Below are positions 16,101-21,894 of a stretch of 64,000 nt of DNA, one piece after another (within the stretch, counting starts at the first letter, position 1; each line of letters opens with the position of its first letter). Made by a program: the position numbers and the translations under genes. The DNA is taken from the NCBI GenBank assembly GCA_029262115.1, contig JAJCZZ010000059.1:64501-128500 (forward strand), read 5' to 3'. The DNA comes from Gemmatimonadota bacterium. Lineage in GTDB: Bacteria; Gemmatimonadota; Gemmatimonadetes; Longimicrobiales; Gaopeijiaceae. The notes under the pieces were generated by a model that worked only from the letters and a program-made list of their open reading frames with translations, had not been told where the DNA came from and did no database searches.

Positions 16101-17687
16101 CTACTCGTCGCCGCCGACAGCCGGCACGGCCTCGGCTTGGATGGTATCCGTCGGGAGGGCGGAGATCTCGAGATCGGCGCTCGCGGATTCGACCCGGTCG
16201 AGGATGACCTGCACGGATGGCTCCATTCGCTCCAGTAGCGGAGTCGGATGCCATCCAATGAGGATCATCAAAGCCAGGAGGGGCGTCAGAATCACGAGCT
16301 CGCGTCGGGTGAGGTCGTGGACCTCGATGTTCTCCGCTCGGTCGAGCTTGTTGAAGAACACCTTCTGGACCATGGGCAGCATGTAGTACGCCGCGAAGAT
16401 CACCCCGGTGGCGGCGATGCCGGCCAGGACCGGATGCGTCTCGAAGGCACCGAGGAGCGCCAGGAACTCACCCACGAAGCCACTGGTGCCCGGGAGGCCG
16501 ATCGATGCGAGGGCGGTGATGATGAACGCGGTCGTCAACAGCGGCGCCACCCGTCCGATTCCGCCGAAATCCTCGATCTTCCGGGTGTGGCGCCTCTCGT
16601 AGAGCATGCCGAGCAGAAGGAAGAGCGCGCCCGTGCTGATCCCGTGGGAGATCATGACGACCAACCCGCCCTGGAGACCGTTCACCGTCAGTGCGAAGAT
16701 TCCGAGCACCACGAAGCCCATGTGGGCCACGGAGGTATACGCCACGAGCTTCTTGGCGTCCGGCTGGACCGCCGCGACCCAGGCCGTGAAGATGATGCCG
16801 ACCACCGCCAGGGTCATCATAACGAGGACCACCGTCGGGTGCTGAGCCGCCACGGGGAAGAGCGGTAGCAGAAACCGCAGGAACCCGTACGTGCCCATCT
16901 TCAGAAGGACCGCCGCCAGCACCACCGAGCCGGGAGTCGGCGCCTCGACGTGGGCGTCCGGCAACCAGGTGTGCAGCGGAAACAGCGGGATCTTCACACT
17001 GAACGCGAGCGCGAAGGCCGCGAAGAGCCACAGTTGCTCCGTCCCGGTCAATGGCACCTGGAGCAGGTCGGCCAGCGCGAAGGTCGGCACGCCCAGGGCC
17101 GTCTTGGCCTTGAAGAACAAGAACAGGATCCCCACGAGCATCAGAAGGGATCCGAACGCCGTGTAGAGGAAGAACTTGATGGCCGCATAGATCCGTCGTT
17201 CCCCGCCCCAGATCCCGACGATGAAGTACATCGGAACGAGCGTCAGCTCGAAGAAGACGTAGAACAGGAAGACGTCGGTGGCCACGAACACCCCCACCAC
17301 CCCCGCCTCCAGCAACAGCATCAGCGCATAGAAGGCGCGCTCCCGCTTCCGGATGTACTCGAACGACCCGAGGATCGCCAAGGGGGTGATCAGCGTGGTC
17401 AGGAGCACCATGAACAAGCTGATGCCGTCCACCCCCAACGCGTAGCTGATGCCCCACCCCGGAATCCACGGAGCCACGCTCTCCATCTGCATGACACCGG
17501 AGCCCGGATCGAACGCCCACCACATCCCCAGGCTGAGGACGAACACCCCCGCCGACCACCAGAACGCGACATGCTTCGCCCGCTCCTCGTCCGCCCACAG
17601 CACCAGCCCCATACCCAGGATCGGCAGCCAGATGAGCGCGTGAAGGATCCACTCGGCGTACCCGATGGAAGACAAGATCTCAGTCAT
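16101..17687 (-). CDS. nuoM: NADH-quinone oxidoreductase subunit M
   Basis: NuoM is the second antiporter-like subunit of complex I. The 528-residue protein has the functional glutamate in FFELTLVPMYFIVG and the lysine in LLKMGTYGFLR, both needed for proton transfer. The ATG at 17687 (MTEILSSIGYAEW) is preferred over a TTG three codons upstream. Neither has a good ribosome site. The gene is separated from nuoL by 441 bp of repeat-rich DNA instead of the usual few bases, so its translation cannot be coupled to nuoL. Confidence 0.96.
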   Translation of the reverse strand: MTEILSSIGYAEWILHALIWLPILGMGLVLWADEERAKHVAFWWSAGVFVLSLGMWWAFDPGSGVMQMESVAPWIPGWGISYALGVDGISLFMVLLTTLITPLAILGSFEYIRKRERAFYALMLLLEAGVVGVFVATDVFLFYVFFELTLVPMYFIVGIWGGERRIYAAIKFFLYTAFGSLLMLVGILFLFFKAKTALGVPTFALADLLQVPLTGTEQLWLFAAFALAFSVKIPLFPLHTWLPDAHVEAPTPGSVVLAAVLLKMGTYGFLRFLLPLFPVAAQHPTVVLVMMTLAVVGIIFTAWVAAVQPDAKKLVAYTSVAHMGFVVLGIFALTVNGLQGGLVVMISHGISTGALFLLLGMLYERRHTRKIEDFGGIGRVAPLLTTAFIITALASIGLPGTSGFVGEFLALLGAFETHPVLAGIAATGVIFAAYYMLPMVQKVFFNKLDRAENIEVHDLTRRELVILTPLLALMILIGWHPTPLLERMEPSVQVILDRVESASADLEISALPTDTIQAEAVPAVGGDE

Positions 17688-17725
17688 CCGCCACAACCAT
17701 GAGGGTGCAATTCAGAAGCCCGGAA

Positions 17726-17943
17726 AGAGCGCGCAGCGTCGCCGAAGGCGAGCGGCAGCAAACGACCGTTGGCGAAGCCCCGACCCGCAGCGCCGCCGAA
17801 GGCGCGCAACAGCGAACGACCGTTGGCGAAGCCCCGACCCGCAGCGTCGCCGAAGGCGCGCGGAAGCAAACGACCGTTGGCGGAGTACCGACCCGCAGCG
17901 TCGCCGAAGGCGAGCGGCACCGTACCACGACCGTCGGCGTACC
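17726..17943. repeat. Four tandem 54-bp units between nuoL and nuoM
   Basis: Two full 54-bp units (17780-17833 and 17834-17887) are flanked by a partial copy (about 17726-17779) and a diverged 56-bp copy (17888-17943). The core reads CCGACCCGCAGCGTCGCCGA, then AGGCGxGCGG and ACGACCGTTGGCGAAGCC. Each unit holds two small hairpins with GAA loops, CGCC-GAA-GGCG and GGC-GAA-GCC (the second is altered in the last two units). The units begin about 40 bp before the nuoM start. No spacer-like unique sequence separates them. Confidence 0.9.
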
Positions 17944-17988
17944 CGACCGCCCCTGTGTCTTCCGACCGCGAGGCAGAGGACCGTTCAA

Positions 17989-18110
17989 ATCGAGTGCGAG
18001 ACAAGGCGGGCGAGCACCGGATTCCGAGGCGTGGCAGCGCCACGTCGCAGGAAACGGAGCGGAGCCCAACGCAGTGGGGAACCCCCGCGCGAAGCGAGTG
18101 GGTCGCCGAT
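17989..18110. repeat. 122-nt intra-operon repeat, copy A (nuoL/nuoM gap)
   Basis: This segment and 21253-21374 have exactly the same length and orientation and differ at 13 of 122 positions. Nine of those differences lie in one hairpin: here CGTGGC-AGC-GCCACG (18030-18044). Three stem pairs change in a compensatory way between copies. Further on, CGC-GAA-GCG is conserved. The element ends 18 bp from the nuoL stop. The tandem 54-bp array fills most of the space between it and nuoM. Confidence 0.92.
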
Positions 18111-18128
18111 TTCAACGGTCCCCTCCCA

Positions 18129-20294
18129 TCAGAAGAGGAAGGATGCGAGGGTGAAGAGAACCCCCAAAGACAGGACAAACGCGTACGTGTTCACGGACCC
18201 TGTCTGGAAGAGGCTGCCGAACCATCCGAACCCGCGCGCGAGGTACCCGACGGCGTTCACCATCCCATCGATGATGCCCTGGTCGATGACCCGCCAGGAG
18301 AAGCGCGACGCCTTGCCGAGCGGTCGGACGACCACAGCGTCGTACGCCTCATCCACGTACCATTTGTTGTAGAGCACCTTCCCGAAGCCGGTCGGCGCCG
18401 CGTCCTTGTCGGCCGTCTCGACTTCCCGTCCGCCGACGAGTACAACCGTCGCGATCACGACCGCGAGGGCCGCCAGCGTGCTCGCCACCGCCCACGCCAC
18501 CTCGCCGCCACCGACGGGCGCGCTGTGCGCCAGCTCGCCGAGATGCACTTCCTGGATGTGATGCGCCTGCGCGGTGAGGGGCTCGAGCCAATGGTGGAGC
18601 CATTCGCTCATGGGCAACGCGCCCCCGAGGCCGAGGAACGACGTCCGAATCGCTTCGGGAACGTTGATCCACCCGCCGAAGATGGAGAGGACCGCCAACA
18701 CGGCGAGCGGAATCCACATGACCGCGGGAGCCTTGTGCAGGTACTTTCGCTCTTCCTCACCCGTGCGGTTGGAGCCATGGAACGTCATCACCATGAGACG
18801 CGTCATGTAAAACGCTGTCAGCATAGCCGCGGCCAGCGCCAGGATCCAATAGATCGTGTACAGGAAGGGGTAGGGCGCGTTAGCGGCGCCCCCGAACGCG
18901 GCGGTCTGCCAGATGATCTCGTCTTTCGAGAAGAAGCCGGCAAACGGCCAGATCCCCGCGATTGCGAGGGTCGCGATCCACATCGTGATCCAGGTGATGG
19001 GCAGGTACTTCTTCAGCCCACCCATGTTGCGCATGTCCTGCGCGTCGGCGTGGCTGTGCGTGTGGTGCAGCGCCTCGTGCATCGAATGGATGACGGCGCC
19101 CGAGCCGAGGAAGAGCAGCGCCTTGAAGAAGGCGCGGGTCATGAGGTGGAAGACGCCAGCCGCGTAGGCCCCGACCCCGACGCCCAGGAACATGTAGCCG
19201 AGCTGGGACACCGTGGAGTACGCCAGAACCTTCTTGATGTCGTTCTGCGTCAGGGCGATGGTGGCCGCGAACAGCGCCGTAAGCACACCCACCCCCGCGA
19301 CCGCCGCACTGCCGACCGGCGAGAGCGCGAAGATCACCGAGGACCGCGCCACGAGGTAGACGCCCGCCGTGACCATGGTGGCCGCGTGGATGAGCGCCGA
19401 CACGGGCGTAGGGCCTGCCATTGCGTCCGGCAGCCAGATGTAGAGCGGAATCTGCGCGCTCTTGCCCGCTGCGCCCACGAGAAAGAACAGGGCGATGGCC
19501 GTGACGGCGCCCCCACCGTACACGAGCGCGTCTTCTGCACCCGCGAAGATGTCCAGGAAGTCGAGCGTCCCGAACGTCGCGAATAAAAGGAACATCGCAA
19601 TCAGGAAGCCGACGTCGCCGATGCGGTTGACGATGAACGCCTTCTTGCCCGCGTCCGCCTTCTCACGATCGCTGAACCAGTACCCGATCAGGAGGTAGGA
19701 GCACAGACCGACCCCCTCCCACCCGACGAACATCAACGGATAGCTCGCGCCCATGACGAGCACCAGCATGAAGAACACGAACAGGTTGAGGTACGCGAAG
19801 TAGCGCGGGTAGCCGGTGTCGTCCTTCATGTACCCGACACTGAACACGTGGATCAGGAAGCCGACGCCCGTGATGATCATCATCATGATCATCGACAGCT
19901 GATCCAGTTGCAGCGCCGCGTCCACGGTGAACGTGCTCGTGGAGATCCAGTGCCAGTAGGAAATCACCACGGGATGCTCCAGGTGCGCCCCGAGCATCCG
20001 AACAAAGTTCACCACGGTGATGGCGAAGGCCCCGAGCATCACGCCGGGTCCGATCCAGGTCGGGAGCGTGTGCGTCGACGGGCGTCCGCCCGGACCGTCG
20101 AGCTGCAACTCCCCTCCCGCCCGAACGGCCGCTGCCGACCGCTTGGCGTGCGAGAGGGCGAGCAGCCCGTTCAGCACGAAGCCGAGCAGCGGAAGAAGTA
20201 CGACCAGCGCCGGGAAGAACGGCTCGAAGGATCCCGCTACCTGGTCCGCTTCGACCCCGCCCTGCACGGCCAGCATCGAGAGGGTCAAGAACAT
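18129..20294 (-). CDS. nuoL: NADH-quinone oxidoreductase subunit L
   Basis: NuoL is the distal proton-pumping antiporter-like subunit with the long lateral helix. It has 721 residues; hallmarks include FVGWEGVGLCSYLLIGYW with the key glutamate, GKSAQIPLYIWLPDAMAGPTPVSALIHAATMV, and LTQNDIKKVLAYSTVSQLGYM. A His-rich loop (HEALHHTHSHADAQD) follows the antiporter core. It begins 4 bp after nuoK. A 441-bp repeat region follows it before nuoM. Confidence 0.97.
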   Translation of the reverse strand: MFLTLSMLAVQGGVEADQVAGSFEPFFPALVVLLPLLGFVLNGLLALSHAKRSAAAVRAGGELQLDGPGGRPSTHTLPTWIGPGVMLGAFAITVVNFVRMLGAHLEHPVVISYWHWISTSTFTVDAALQLDQLSMIMMMIITGVGFLIHVFSVGYMKDDTGYPRYFAYLNLFVFFMLVLVMGASYPLMFVGWEGVGLCSYLLIGYWFSDREKADAGKKAFIVNRIGDVGFLIAMFLLFATFGTLDFLDIFAGAEDALVYGGGAVTAIALFFLVGAAGKSAQIPLYIWLPDAMAGPTPVSALIHAATMVTAGVYLVARSSVIFALSPVGSAAVAGVGVLTALFAATIALTQNDIKKVLAYSTVSQLGYMFLGVGVGAYAAGVFHLMTRAFFKALLFLGSGAVIHSMHEALHHTHSHADAQDMRNMGGLKKYLPITWITMWIATLAIAGIWPFAGFFSKDEIIWQTAAFGGAANAPYPFLYTIYWILALAAAMLTAFYMTRLMVMTFHGSNRTGEEERKYLHKAPAVMWIPLAVLAVLSIFGGWINVPEAIRTSFLGLGGALPMSEWLHHWLEPLTAQAHHIQEVHLGELAHSAPVGGGEVAWAVASTLAALAVVIATVVLVGGREVETADKDAAPTGFGKVLYNKWYVDEAYDAVVVRPLGKASRFSWRVIDQGIIDGMVNAVGYLARGFGWFGSLFQTGSVNTYAFVLSLGVLFTLASFLF

Positions 20295-20298
20295 GTCC

Positions 20299-20592
20299 CT
20301 ACCACTTCAACAGGTTGAAGTTGTCCACGTTCACCGTCTCGTAGTGGCGGAAGATCGAAATGATGATCGCAAGCCCCACCGCCGCCTCGGCGGCCGCGAC
20401 CGTCATCACGAAGAAGACGAAGATCTGCCCGTCGATGCCCACGGACCGGGATAGGGCGACGAACGCCACGTTCACGGCATTGAGTTGGAGCTCGATGCAC
20501 AGGAACATGATGATGGCGTTCCGTCGGATCAGGACCCCGAAGGTCCCGATCACGAACAGGATGGCCGACAGGATCAGGCCCTCGGTGATCAT
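20299..20592 (-). CDS. nuoK: NADH-quinone oxidoreductase subunit K
   Basis: This 97-residue three-helix subunit carries the two membrane glutamates of the E-channel, in [11 protein letters not shown] and [11 protein letters not shown]. The ATG overlaps the nuoJ stop (ATGA), which couples the two genes. It contributes to the proton path between the quinone site and the antiporter subunits. Confidence 0.97.
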
Positions 20593-21110
20593 GCCACGTT
20601 CCTTTTCGCGAGCGCCAAAGCCCCCACGATCGCGACCAGCAACAGGATACCGGTGATCTCGAACGGGACGACGTAGTCGGTGAAGAGCGTCTGCCCGATG
20701 GCCCCCACGGCGCCGTGCTCCGCCAGCGCCGCATCAATGGCGATGGCCCCGGCCGCCGGCCCATCGCCCTCGAGTCCGCCGAAGCGCGTGGCGAGCATCC
20801 CCGCCATCACGCCGACGACTGCAAAGGAGACCACCGCGAAGGCGCCCATCTTTACGTCCTGTTCGTAGTCGTGCCCAAGGTTGAGTAGCATGATCACGAA
20901 CATGAACAGGACCATGATGGCGCCCGCGTAGACGATCACCTGAACCGCCGCCAGGAAGTGCGCCTCCATGAGGACGAACGTCCCCGCCACCGACCCGAGC
21001 GACACCACCATCATGAGGAGGCTGGCCACGGGGCTCTTGGCGAGCACAACCCCCAGCGCCCCCCCGATGGCCACACCAGCGAAGAGGTAGAACAAGACGG
21101 TCGCAAACAT
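20589..21110 (-). CDS. nuoJ: NADH-quinone oxidoreductase subunit J
   Basis: The 173-residue NuoJ starts [16 protein letters not shown] and has five hydrophobic helices; the helix 3 segment [20 protein letters not shown] contains the tyrosine and glycine that form the pi-bulge. The frame remains open for 57 codons upstream, but those codons run into repeat sequence and are not NuoJ-like, so the ATG at 21110 is used. A 283-bp repeat-bearing gap separates it from nuoI. Confidence 0.96.
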
Positions 21111-21112
21111 GG

Positions 21113-21252
21113 TCAGCGCCCCCTGAAGGGCGAGCGGCCAGCGGCCGGGAGGAAGTCGGCAGCGAGGATGGAGCGCCGGCCAACGGCCGCGCGACCACCC
21201 GAGCCCCCCGCGAAGCCAGCGGACTGCATGCCCGGAGCACGAGAATGGGGAG
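21113..21252. repeat. Degenerate companion of the 54-bp unit upstream of nuoJ
   Basis: The segment next to the nuoJ start reads CAGCGCCCCCTGAAGGGCGA followed by GCGGCCAGC. It resembles CAGCGTCGCCGAAGGCGAGC followed by GGCAGC in the nuoM-side array. A hairpin is kept in both, CCCT-GA-AGGG here and CGCC-GAA-GGCG there, with different bases in the stem. The rest of the stretch up to 21252 is GC-rich and has no gene. The relationship is plausible but weak. Confidence 0.45.
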
Positions 21253-21374
21253 ATCGAGTGCCAGACAAGGCGGGCGAGCACCGGATTCCGAGGAAGGGCC
21301 CGGCCCTTTCGCAGGAAACGGAGCGGAGCCCAACGAAGTGGGGCACCCGCGCGCGAAGCGAGTGGGTCGCCGAT
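21253..21374. repeat. 122-nt intra-operon repeat, copy B (nuoI/nuoJ gap)
   Basis: This is the second copy of the element at 17989-18110, in the same orientation. The variable hairpin here is AAGGGC-CCG-GCCCTT (21294-21308), at the same offset (base 42) as CGTGGC-AGC-GCCACG in copy A. Outside it only four bases differ. The element ends 19 bp from the nuoI stop, nearly the same distance as copy A from nuoL. All reading frames through it are open only because of high GC, and the encoded peptides are not conserved across the hairpin. Confidence 0.92.
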
Positions 21375-21393
21375 ATCGCCATTCGCCCCCGGA

Positions 21394-21894
21394 TCATTCG
21401 GACCTCGGGTCCGAAGGATCCCACAACAAGGTAGTAGGGTGTTCTTGGTGGGTGAGTCGGTCTAAGTCGTATATAAACCGATCCCGCGTATACTCCGCGT
21501 TCTCGAAGTGCCGCCCCACGTGGATGGCCTCCACCGGGCACACCTCCTGGCACATTCCGCAGAAGATGCAGCGGAACTCGTCGATCTCGTAGACGATCGG
21601 ATAGCGGTTGCCCTGATCGTCCTCTCCGCCGACGAGCCGGATACAGTTGGCGGGACAGACGGTCGGACAGAGCCCGCACGCCACACACTTCGGCCGTCCG
21701 TCCGCGTGCACCTCCATGCGGTGCGTCCCCCGCCACCGGGGGTGCAGATCGGTCTGCTCTTCCGGGTACTGCTGGGTGACCTTCTGCGGGTTGATCATGT
21801 GCTTGAACGTGAGCGCCATCCCGCTCAGCGCCGCACGGAGATAGGATGTGGTCTCCGGCTCCGGCCGCTCCATCACCTTCACGGAAATCGCCAT
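21394..21894 (-). CDS. nuoI: NADH-quinone oxidoreductase subunit I
   Basis: NuoI holds clusters N6a and N6b that pass electrons from NuoG to N2. Two intact 4Fe-4S motifs are visible, CVACGLCPTVCP and CIFCGMCQEVCP. The 166-residue length is normal. Its ATG directly abuts the nuoH stop (TAGATG). It is the last gene before the first repeat-filled break in the operon. Confidence 0.97.
   Translation of the reverse strand: MAISVKVMERPEPETTSYLRAALSGMALTFKHMINPQKVTQQYPEEQTDLHPRWRGTHRMEVHADGRPKCVACGLCPTVCPANCIRLVGGEDDQGNRYPIVYEIDEFRCIFCGMCQEVCPVEAIHVGRHFENAEYTRDRFIYDLDRLTHQEHPTTLLWDPSDPRSE

Follow-up and report, generated by a model that had tools for sequence, protein, structure and literature searches.

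Within the window analysed here, a stretch of 64,000 nucleotides from a Gemmatimonadota bacterium of the family Gaopeijiaceae, a repeat occurs twice inside the nuo operon, each time with a hairpin whose pairing is kept while its sequence is not. The locus raises the question of what kind of element this is, what keeps its fold, and how it comes to lie so close to the ends of genes. A sequence-only reading had seen in the two copies the selection or copying of a DNA or RNA structure, as in REP/BIME-like or small mobile elements, and had proposed a covariance-model search of the genome and its relatives together with a check for a REP-associated tyrosine transposase.

Results

The two repeats, at 17989-18110 and 21253-21374, are each 122 nt long, lie on one strand and differ at 13 positions, just as had been claimed. 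Nine of the 13 differences fall inside the apical hairpin, which reads CGTGGC-AGC-GCCACG in copy 1 (18030-18044, + strand) and AAGGGC-CCG-GCCCTT in copy 2 (21294-21308, + strand), with three base pairs altered on both sides. The repeat was thus correctly recognised, but its boundaries had been drawn too narrowly and missed the outer terminal stem of each copy. At full length, copy 1 spans 17978-18121 on the + strand, which is antisense to nuo and corresponds to the orientation of our models, and has the terminal stem GGACCGTTCAAATCG...CGATTTCAACGGTCC, with GGACCGTT...AACGGTCC closing 17978-18121; copy 2 spans 21243-21384 on the + strand and has the terminal stem GAATGGGGAGATCG...CGATATCGCCATTC, with GAATGG...CCATTC closing 21243-21384. 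The outer stems are unlike in sequence between the copies and complementary within each. Both copies also carry the same extra nested hairpin, located in the 3' arm of copy 1 at 18074-18107 (+ strand; GTGGGGAACCC...GTGGGTCGCC) and at 21338-21371 (+ strand) in copy 2, and both nuo hairpins are stable whichever strand folds. The copies are intergenic, copy 1 in the nuoL/nuoM gap and copy 2 in the nuoI/nuoJ gap. The spacing of 18 to 19 bp given earlier proved exact for the narrower boundaries (18 bp to the nuoL stop at 18129, 19 bp to the nuoI stop at 21394); from the full-length ends, the stop codon of nuoL (18129-20294, - strand; stop at 18129-18131) is 7 nt from copy 1 and that of nuoI (21394-21894, - strand; stop at 21394-21396) is 9 nt from copy 2. 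Between nuoM and copy 1, at 17732-17948 of the window, lie four 54-bp tandem repeats (CGCAGCGTCGCCGAAGGCGAGCGGCAGCAAACGACCGTTGGCGAAGCCCCGACC), which bring the nuoL-nuoM gap to 432 bp.

The source genome (5.45 Mb) contains 13 matches to the element by BLAST and covariance model. Copies 1 and 2 were recovered at an E value of about 1e-13 by a covariance model derived from five further copies of this genome (121 nt, gapless alignment A2). Among these five copies, 23 of 43 pairs are double-changed, compared with 7.9 +/- 2.1 in shuffles, and 95% of cells pair, compared with 81% in shuffles and 35-41% in slid controls. Since the model E value is so low and the double-changed pairs lie far above shuffles, the nuo repeat pair is not a chance resemblance. 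The nested hairpin in one arm defines a long form, comprising copies 1 and 2 and two further copies (L007 and L009), and is missing from the five short copies of the source genome. The apical stem of copy 2, AAGGGC/GCCCTT, is shared with a copy elsewhere in the genome (L048); copies 1 and 2 are therefore different members of the family and not one site that changed three times.

The search of the source genome and its relatives did yield further copies with many more compensatory changes, and it did so in other phyla too. Copies were found by covariance model in 14 of 59 genomes comprising the source genome and relatives, and their presence across Gemmatimonadota is patchy (27 of 298 genomes). 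One genome, G011, holds about 25 copies, many of them arranged as tandem arrays of 134-bp units. A core pattern matched more than 118 stretches in species-representative genomes, and the groups among the matches listed include Nitrospira, Methylomirabilota, Rokubacteria, Syntrophaceae and other deltaproteobacteria, Geobacteraceae, Bdellovibrionaceae, Binatia, Planctomycetota and Actinomycetota. A broader covariance model, R2, gave 1-111 matches per genome in 16 genomes, mostly of other phyla, with 40 in one Geobacteraceae genome. Element length in the family is about 95-135 nt. None of the 4227 covariance models of Rfam matches the element, a BLAST search of PLSDB gave no match that would indicate plasmid carriage, and no viral contig of IMG/VR matches the core pattern. 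A viral origin was rejected on that last count, and weak BLAST matches to mycobacteriophages sit in an HNH coding gene and were judged to be chance. A 101-nt subfamily lacking the middle section was seen in one genome with 13 matches (L096 and L097 of G029). The genome to which contigs labelled Klebsiella pneumoniae belong (MAG CAMASI01; L188 and L204) has 39 element matches at an element GC of about 0.75, and this MAG seems to bear an incorrect species label.

In its general form the element folds into a single long hairpin whose internal loops are purine-rich and conserved (AAGG/AACG, CGAGG/CGCAGG, and a bulged A next to a T.G wobble). Its stems are free to change provided that pairing stays. 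In an alignment of 103 elements, which leans partly to the model but whose outer arms played no part in pattern retrieval, 39 of 41 pairs show double changes, and double-changed cells number 932 against 304 in shuffles, while sliding controls collapse. Covariation is likewise seen at one orthologous Nitrospira site. Compensation accumulates in steps: between elements at least 95% identical, 48 stem changes are one-sided and 3 are compensated, and the ratio of both-sided to one-sided changes climbs with divergence from 0.06 at this identity to 0.99 at 70-80%. The mismatched loops, in turn, persist across phyla. Given the stepwise compensation with divergence and the persistence of mismatched loops, selection on structure fits better than automatic correction of palindromes, although the latter may contribute.

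Read in the direction of the host gene, the element is the model's reverse complement and begins right after the stop codon. Most copies begin 0-12 nt past a stop codon or just past a tRNA-Leu gene, in one orientation. The end of a gene or tRNA in the same orientation lies within 20 nt of 83 of the 152 copies that have a feature on that side, compared with 5 for the other orientation; this count was drawn from 168 matches with some loci represented twice, and genes were called by a codon-usage script, such that single cases may be wrong. An independent set assessed by a simple open-frame test agrees, in that 44 of 71 copies adjoin a gene end, whereas 5.6% of random positions do (p = 4e-37), and 10 of 71 have one at the opposite side. 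The gap from stop to element is mostly 0-3 nt in Nitrospira and Methylomirabilota, and copies in G013 and G037 lie 1-3 nt past tRNA-Leu. At one locus of G037 (L068, contig C109), about 17 tRNA genes lie on one strand within 3 kb, with elements following tRNA-Leu and adjacent to tRNA-Gln. TAG is over-represented among the stop codons of host genes (31/66 vs 136/522). Judged by names read from the sequences, the host genes are functionally unrelated, with NADH dehydrogenase, ABC transporters, thioredoxin, TonB receptors and others among them, and we rejected the idea that they form a regulon on this ground. Roughly two fifths of the copies adjoin no recognised gene end. Some of these are later members of tandem arrays, which trail the first copy at regular steps, and others may reflect crude gene calling. 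The siting at stop codons could stem from translation-linked targeting or from selection against other positions.

An intrinsic terminator was considered and rejected on two grounds: copies lie inside operons, and on the transcript strand there is no T-tract past the far end in the Gemmatimonadota set (T fraction of 0.20 in 10 nt, against a background of 0.21). The terminator-like sites in 17600-21600 all lie outside the elements. In nine Bdellovibrionaceae copies the far end is followed by T-rich sequence (0.41 vs 0.30).

The choice of folding strand leaves a trace in the mismatches, since a folded single strand tolerates G.T pairs for which the opposite strand sees A.C mismatches. A first count of G.T and A.C over the whole family, taken from covariance-model alignments, was biased by the model, and we replaced it with strand-symmetric scoring of the outer arms of 194 elements. 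Read in the antisense orientation, these arms contain 151 G.T against 67 A.C mismatches, or 112 against 64 without the conserved wobble (p = 4e-4), and 206 G.A against 24 T.C; among nearest-neighbour changes the difference narrows to only 76 vs 48 (p = 0.015). The purine-rich loops also sit on the antisense strand. Pairing is thus better preserved on the strand antisense to the host gene, and together these observations point to this strand as the one that probably folds, much as integron attC sites do. The mismatch asymmetry argues against selection acting on the mRNA. A mutation bias confined to one strand could partly account for the asymmetry.

Comparison of orthologous positions bears on mobility. 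The nuoI-nuoJ junction measures 0-30 nt and is empty in G001, which belongs to the same genus, and in most relatives, where the genes abut; in G000 (the source genome), G014 and G033, an element immediately follows the nuoI stop, and its outer stems differ among them. At one Nitrospira gene end compared across 29 genomes, the site is empty (L294 and L318) or holds an element of type A, of type B, or of both in either order (A-B and B-A), and, to judge from these alignments, insertion, loss or exchange must have been repeated there. The element is gained, lost and mobile, as is shown by unoccupied sites, tandem arrays and rearranged order at orthologous positions. Orthologous genes from separate genera or species carry it in several cases, a pattern also compatible with a retained function. 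In type B elements of Nitrospira (L295, L297, L315 and L317), a second insert, GC-rich and unrelated (GGCGCGTCTCGGCGCGCCGGGGTTGGGCGG), is found repeatedly at one position of the 3' arm, and some copies look like A/B hybrids. No clear target-site duplication could be defined at the elements, and we found neither a mobilising enzyme nor an autonomous larger version. Reverse transcriptases were considered as a candidate and dismissed, as they show no association with the element (5/14 carriers vs 13/45) and are absent from G011, G013, G014, G033 and G058. Integron integrases scoring over the curated cut-off occur in 15 of the 59 Gemmatimonadota genomes and are enriched among carriers.

Discussion

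The nuo repeats are best read as members of a large, almost undescribed and widespread family of non-coding mobile hairpins. We favor, with a probability of roughly 0.55, a mobile hairpin that is moved as folded antisense-strand DNA by a putative trans-acting enzyme and whose effect in the 3' UTR is incidental or secondary. The element would be moved or copied as folded single-stranded DNA of the antisense strand; a putative trans-acting recombinase or transposase would recognise its shape and join it to the 3' ends of genes. As a side effect, the upstream gene would gain a strong hairpin in its 3' UTR, including inside operons such as nuo. We raise, tentatively, the idea that these hairpins represent a new class of single-stranded DNA mobile site, in which an antisense hairpin recognised by shape is put precisely after stop codons by a recombinase that is possibly integron-integrase-like. 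Such a site would be a dispersed, cassette-free relative or precursor of attC.

Several other explanations account for part of these data. The hairpin could act as RNA in the 3' UTR of the host mRNA, as an exonuclease barrier or in operon processing, translation termination or ribosome stalling, roles of a kind proposed for REPs lying within 15 nt of stop codons, with its site kept by selection on expression. The fixed orientation and distance to the stop codon, the stability of the hairpin in both strands, its retention at orthologous genes, and the finding that REPs near stop codons lower translation at distances under 16 nt (PMC12306157) would all agree with a function of this kind. We nevertheless consider it rather unlikely, given that the mismatch asymmetry indicates the antisense strand rather than the mRNA, that the model's conserved T.G and G.T wobbles would appear as A.C mismatches on the mRNA side, that host genes are unrelated and their orthologues often lack the element, and that some copies come after tRNA genes. 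A reading without any selection is improbable: imperfect palindromes could correct themselves by template switching in replication, which would leave stems complementary in the absence of function. This process is able to produce double changes, and a stepwise accumulation of compensation is also compatible with it, but internal mismatches (AAGG/AACG, GAG/CGCAG, the bulged A and the conserved wobble) have stayed uncorrected across phyla, and both the strand asymmetry and the gene-end placement would be left unexplained.

The remaining rivals name the enzyme. That the element is itself an attC-like site, which an integron-type tyrosine recombinase would act on as a folded bottom strand and which has been dispersed after genes, seems doubtful. 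Position after the stop codon, a length of about 120 nt, conservation of structure over sequence and the apparent folding of the antisense (bottom) strand all recall attC (PMC6393395, PMC2727003), and 9 of 14 carriers have an integron integrase over the curated cut-off compared with 6 of 45 non-carriers (p = 4e-4, in a test that ignores kinship). Against this, RYYYAAC/GTTRRRY ends are missing and the outermost stem varies freely; no element array lies in the 2-9 kb around ten integrase loci, with a single copy 3.4 kb off in G007; and some carriers have no integrase over the cut-off, namely G038 (18 matches, 97% complete), G014, G029 and G005. Movement as a REP/BIME element by a RAYT, a Y1 HUH transposase, is very improbable. 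As with REPs, the copies are extragenic palindromes near stop codons, and compensatory changes are known in RAYT-linked REPs (PMC2817692). The proposed check for the transposase came out negative in the source genome, which has no Y1_Tnp/RAYT (PF01797) gene, although at 95.7% completeness a missing contig might hold one. The domain gives 0 matches in this genome (G000), is also missing from 12 of the 14 carriers, and is no commoner in carriers (Fisher p = 0.71), with 2 of 14 having it. What stands of the sequence-only reading is therefore a structured repeat family resembling small mobile elements; membership in REP/BIME does not stand, with no RAYT, no GTAG/GTGG head, a length of about 120 nt and one fixed orientation.

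Collectively, these results describe a hairpin family that numbers in the tens per genome across many environmental phyla and is missing from Rfam. Its placement at stop codons and the probable folding of its antisense strand are apparently undescribed, within a literature search that reached few subscription journals. If a recombinase moves these hairpins, they would provide a natural system for studying how attC-like sites come to adjoin genes and how small hairpin DNA spreads without a RAYT. The hairpins change 3' ends in core operons as well, nuo among them.

Among known systems, ERIC/IRU, RUP, Correia and other MITE-like repeats are, like this element, about 100-150 bp long, non-coding, dispersed, palindromic and found inside operons. 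The element differs from these repeats in having no fixed terminal inverted repeat, as its terminal stems vary and stay complementary, and in combining precise gene-end placement with no clear target duplication. It resembles REP/BIME elements as extragenic, multicopy imperfect palindromes that often lie 15 nt or less past stop codons and keep their stems by compensatory change. It is 3-6 times longer than these, however, with units of about 120 nt rather than 20-40, and has several conserved internal loops and one orientation to the host gene; REP heads read GTAG or GTGG (PMC2817692), a feature that it lacks, and its related copies span many phyla.

The attC sites of integrons lie at gene ends, and the present element is similar to them in its position directly after stop codons, its fixed orientation, the keeping of shape over sequence and a length near that of long attC sites. 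In attC the bottom strand folds (PMC6393395, PMC2727003), and the antisense (bottom) strand of the element likewise appears to fold, judging from the mismatch asymmetry. The element differs in lacking paired RYYYAAC...GTTRRRY core boxes, in terminal stems that vary freely, and in occurring mostly as single copies after housekeeping genes rather than in cassette arrays beside intI.

A further counterpart comes from Geobacter metallireducens, for which Aklujkar et al. (2009; PMC2700814, Additional file 4) list 24 intergenic "predicted short RNA elements" as putative regulatory RNA. These elements have the central palindrome GRCGTAGCGCTGCTACGCC, one of them parts dapAB from dapL, and relatives are reported in other Geobacteraceae and in Desulfotalea; as far as we saw, their placement at stop codons, mobility, folding strand and presence in other phyla go unmentioned there. 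In its central motif, the Geobacter palindrome GRCGTAGCGCTGCTACGCC agrees with the apical stem of the hairpin family (GRCGTAGC...GCTACGCC), and the "predicted short RNA elements" are probably members of this family that were noted in 2009 without the properties described here.
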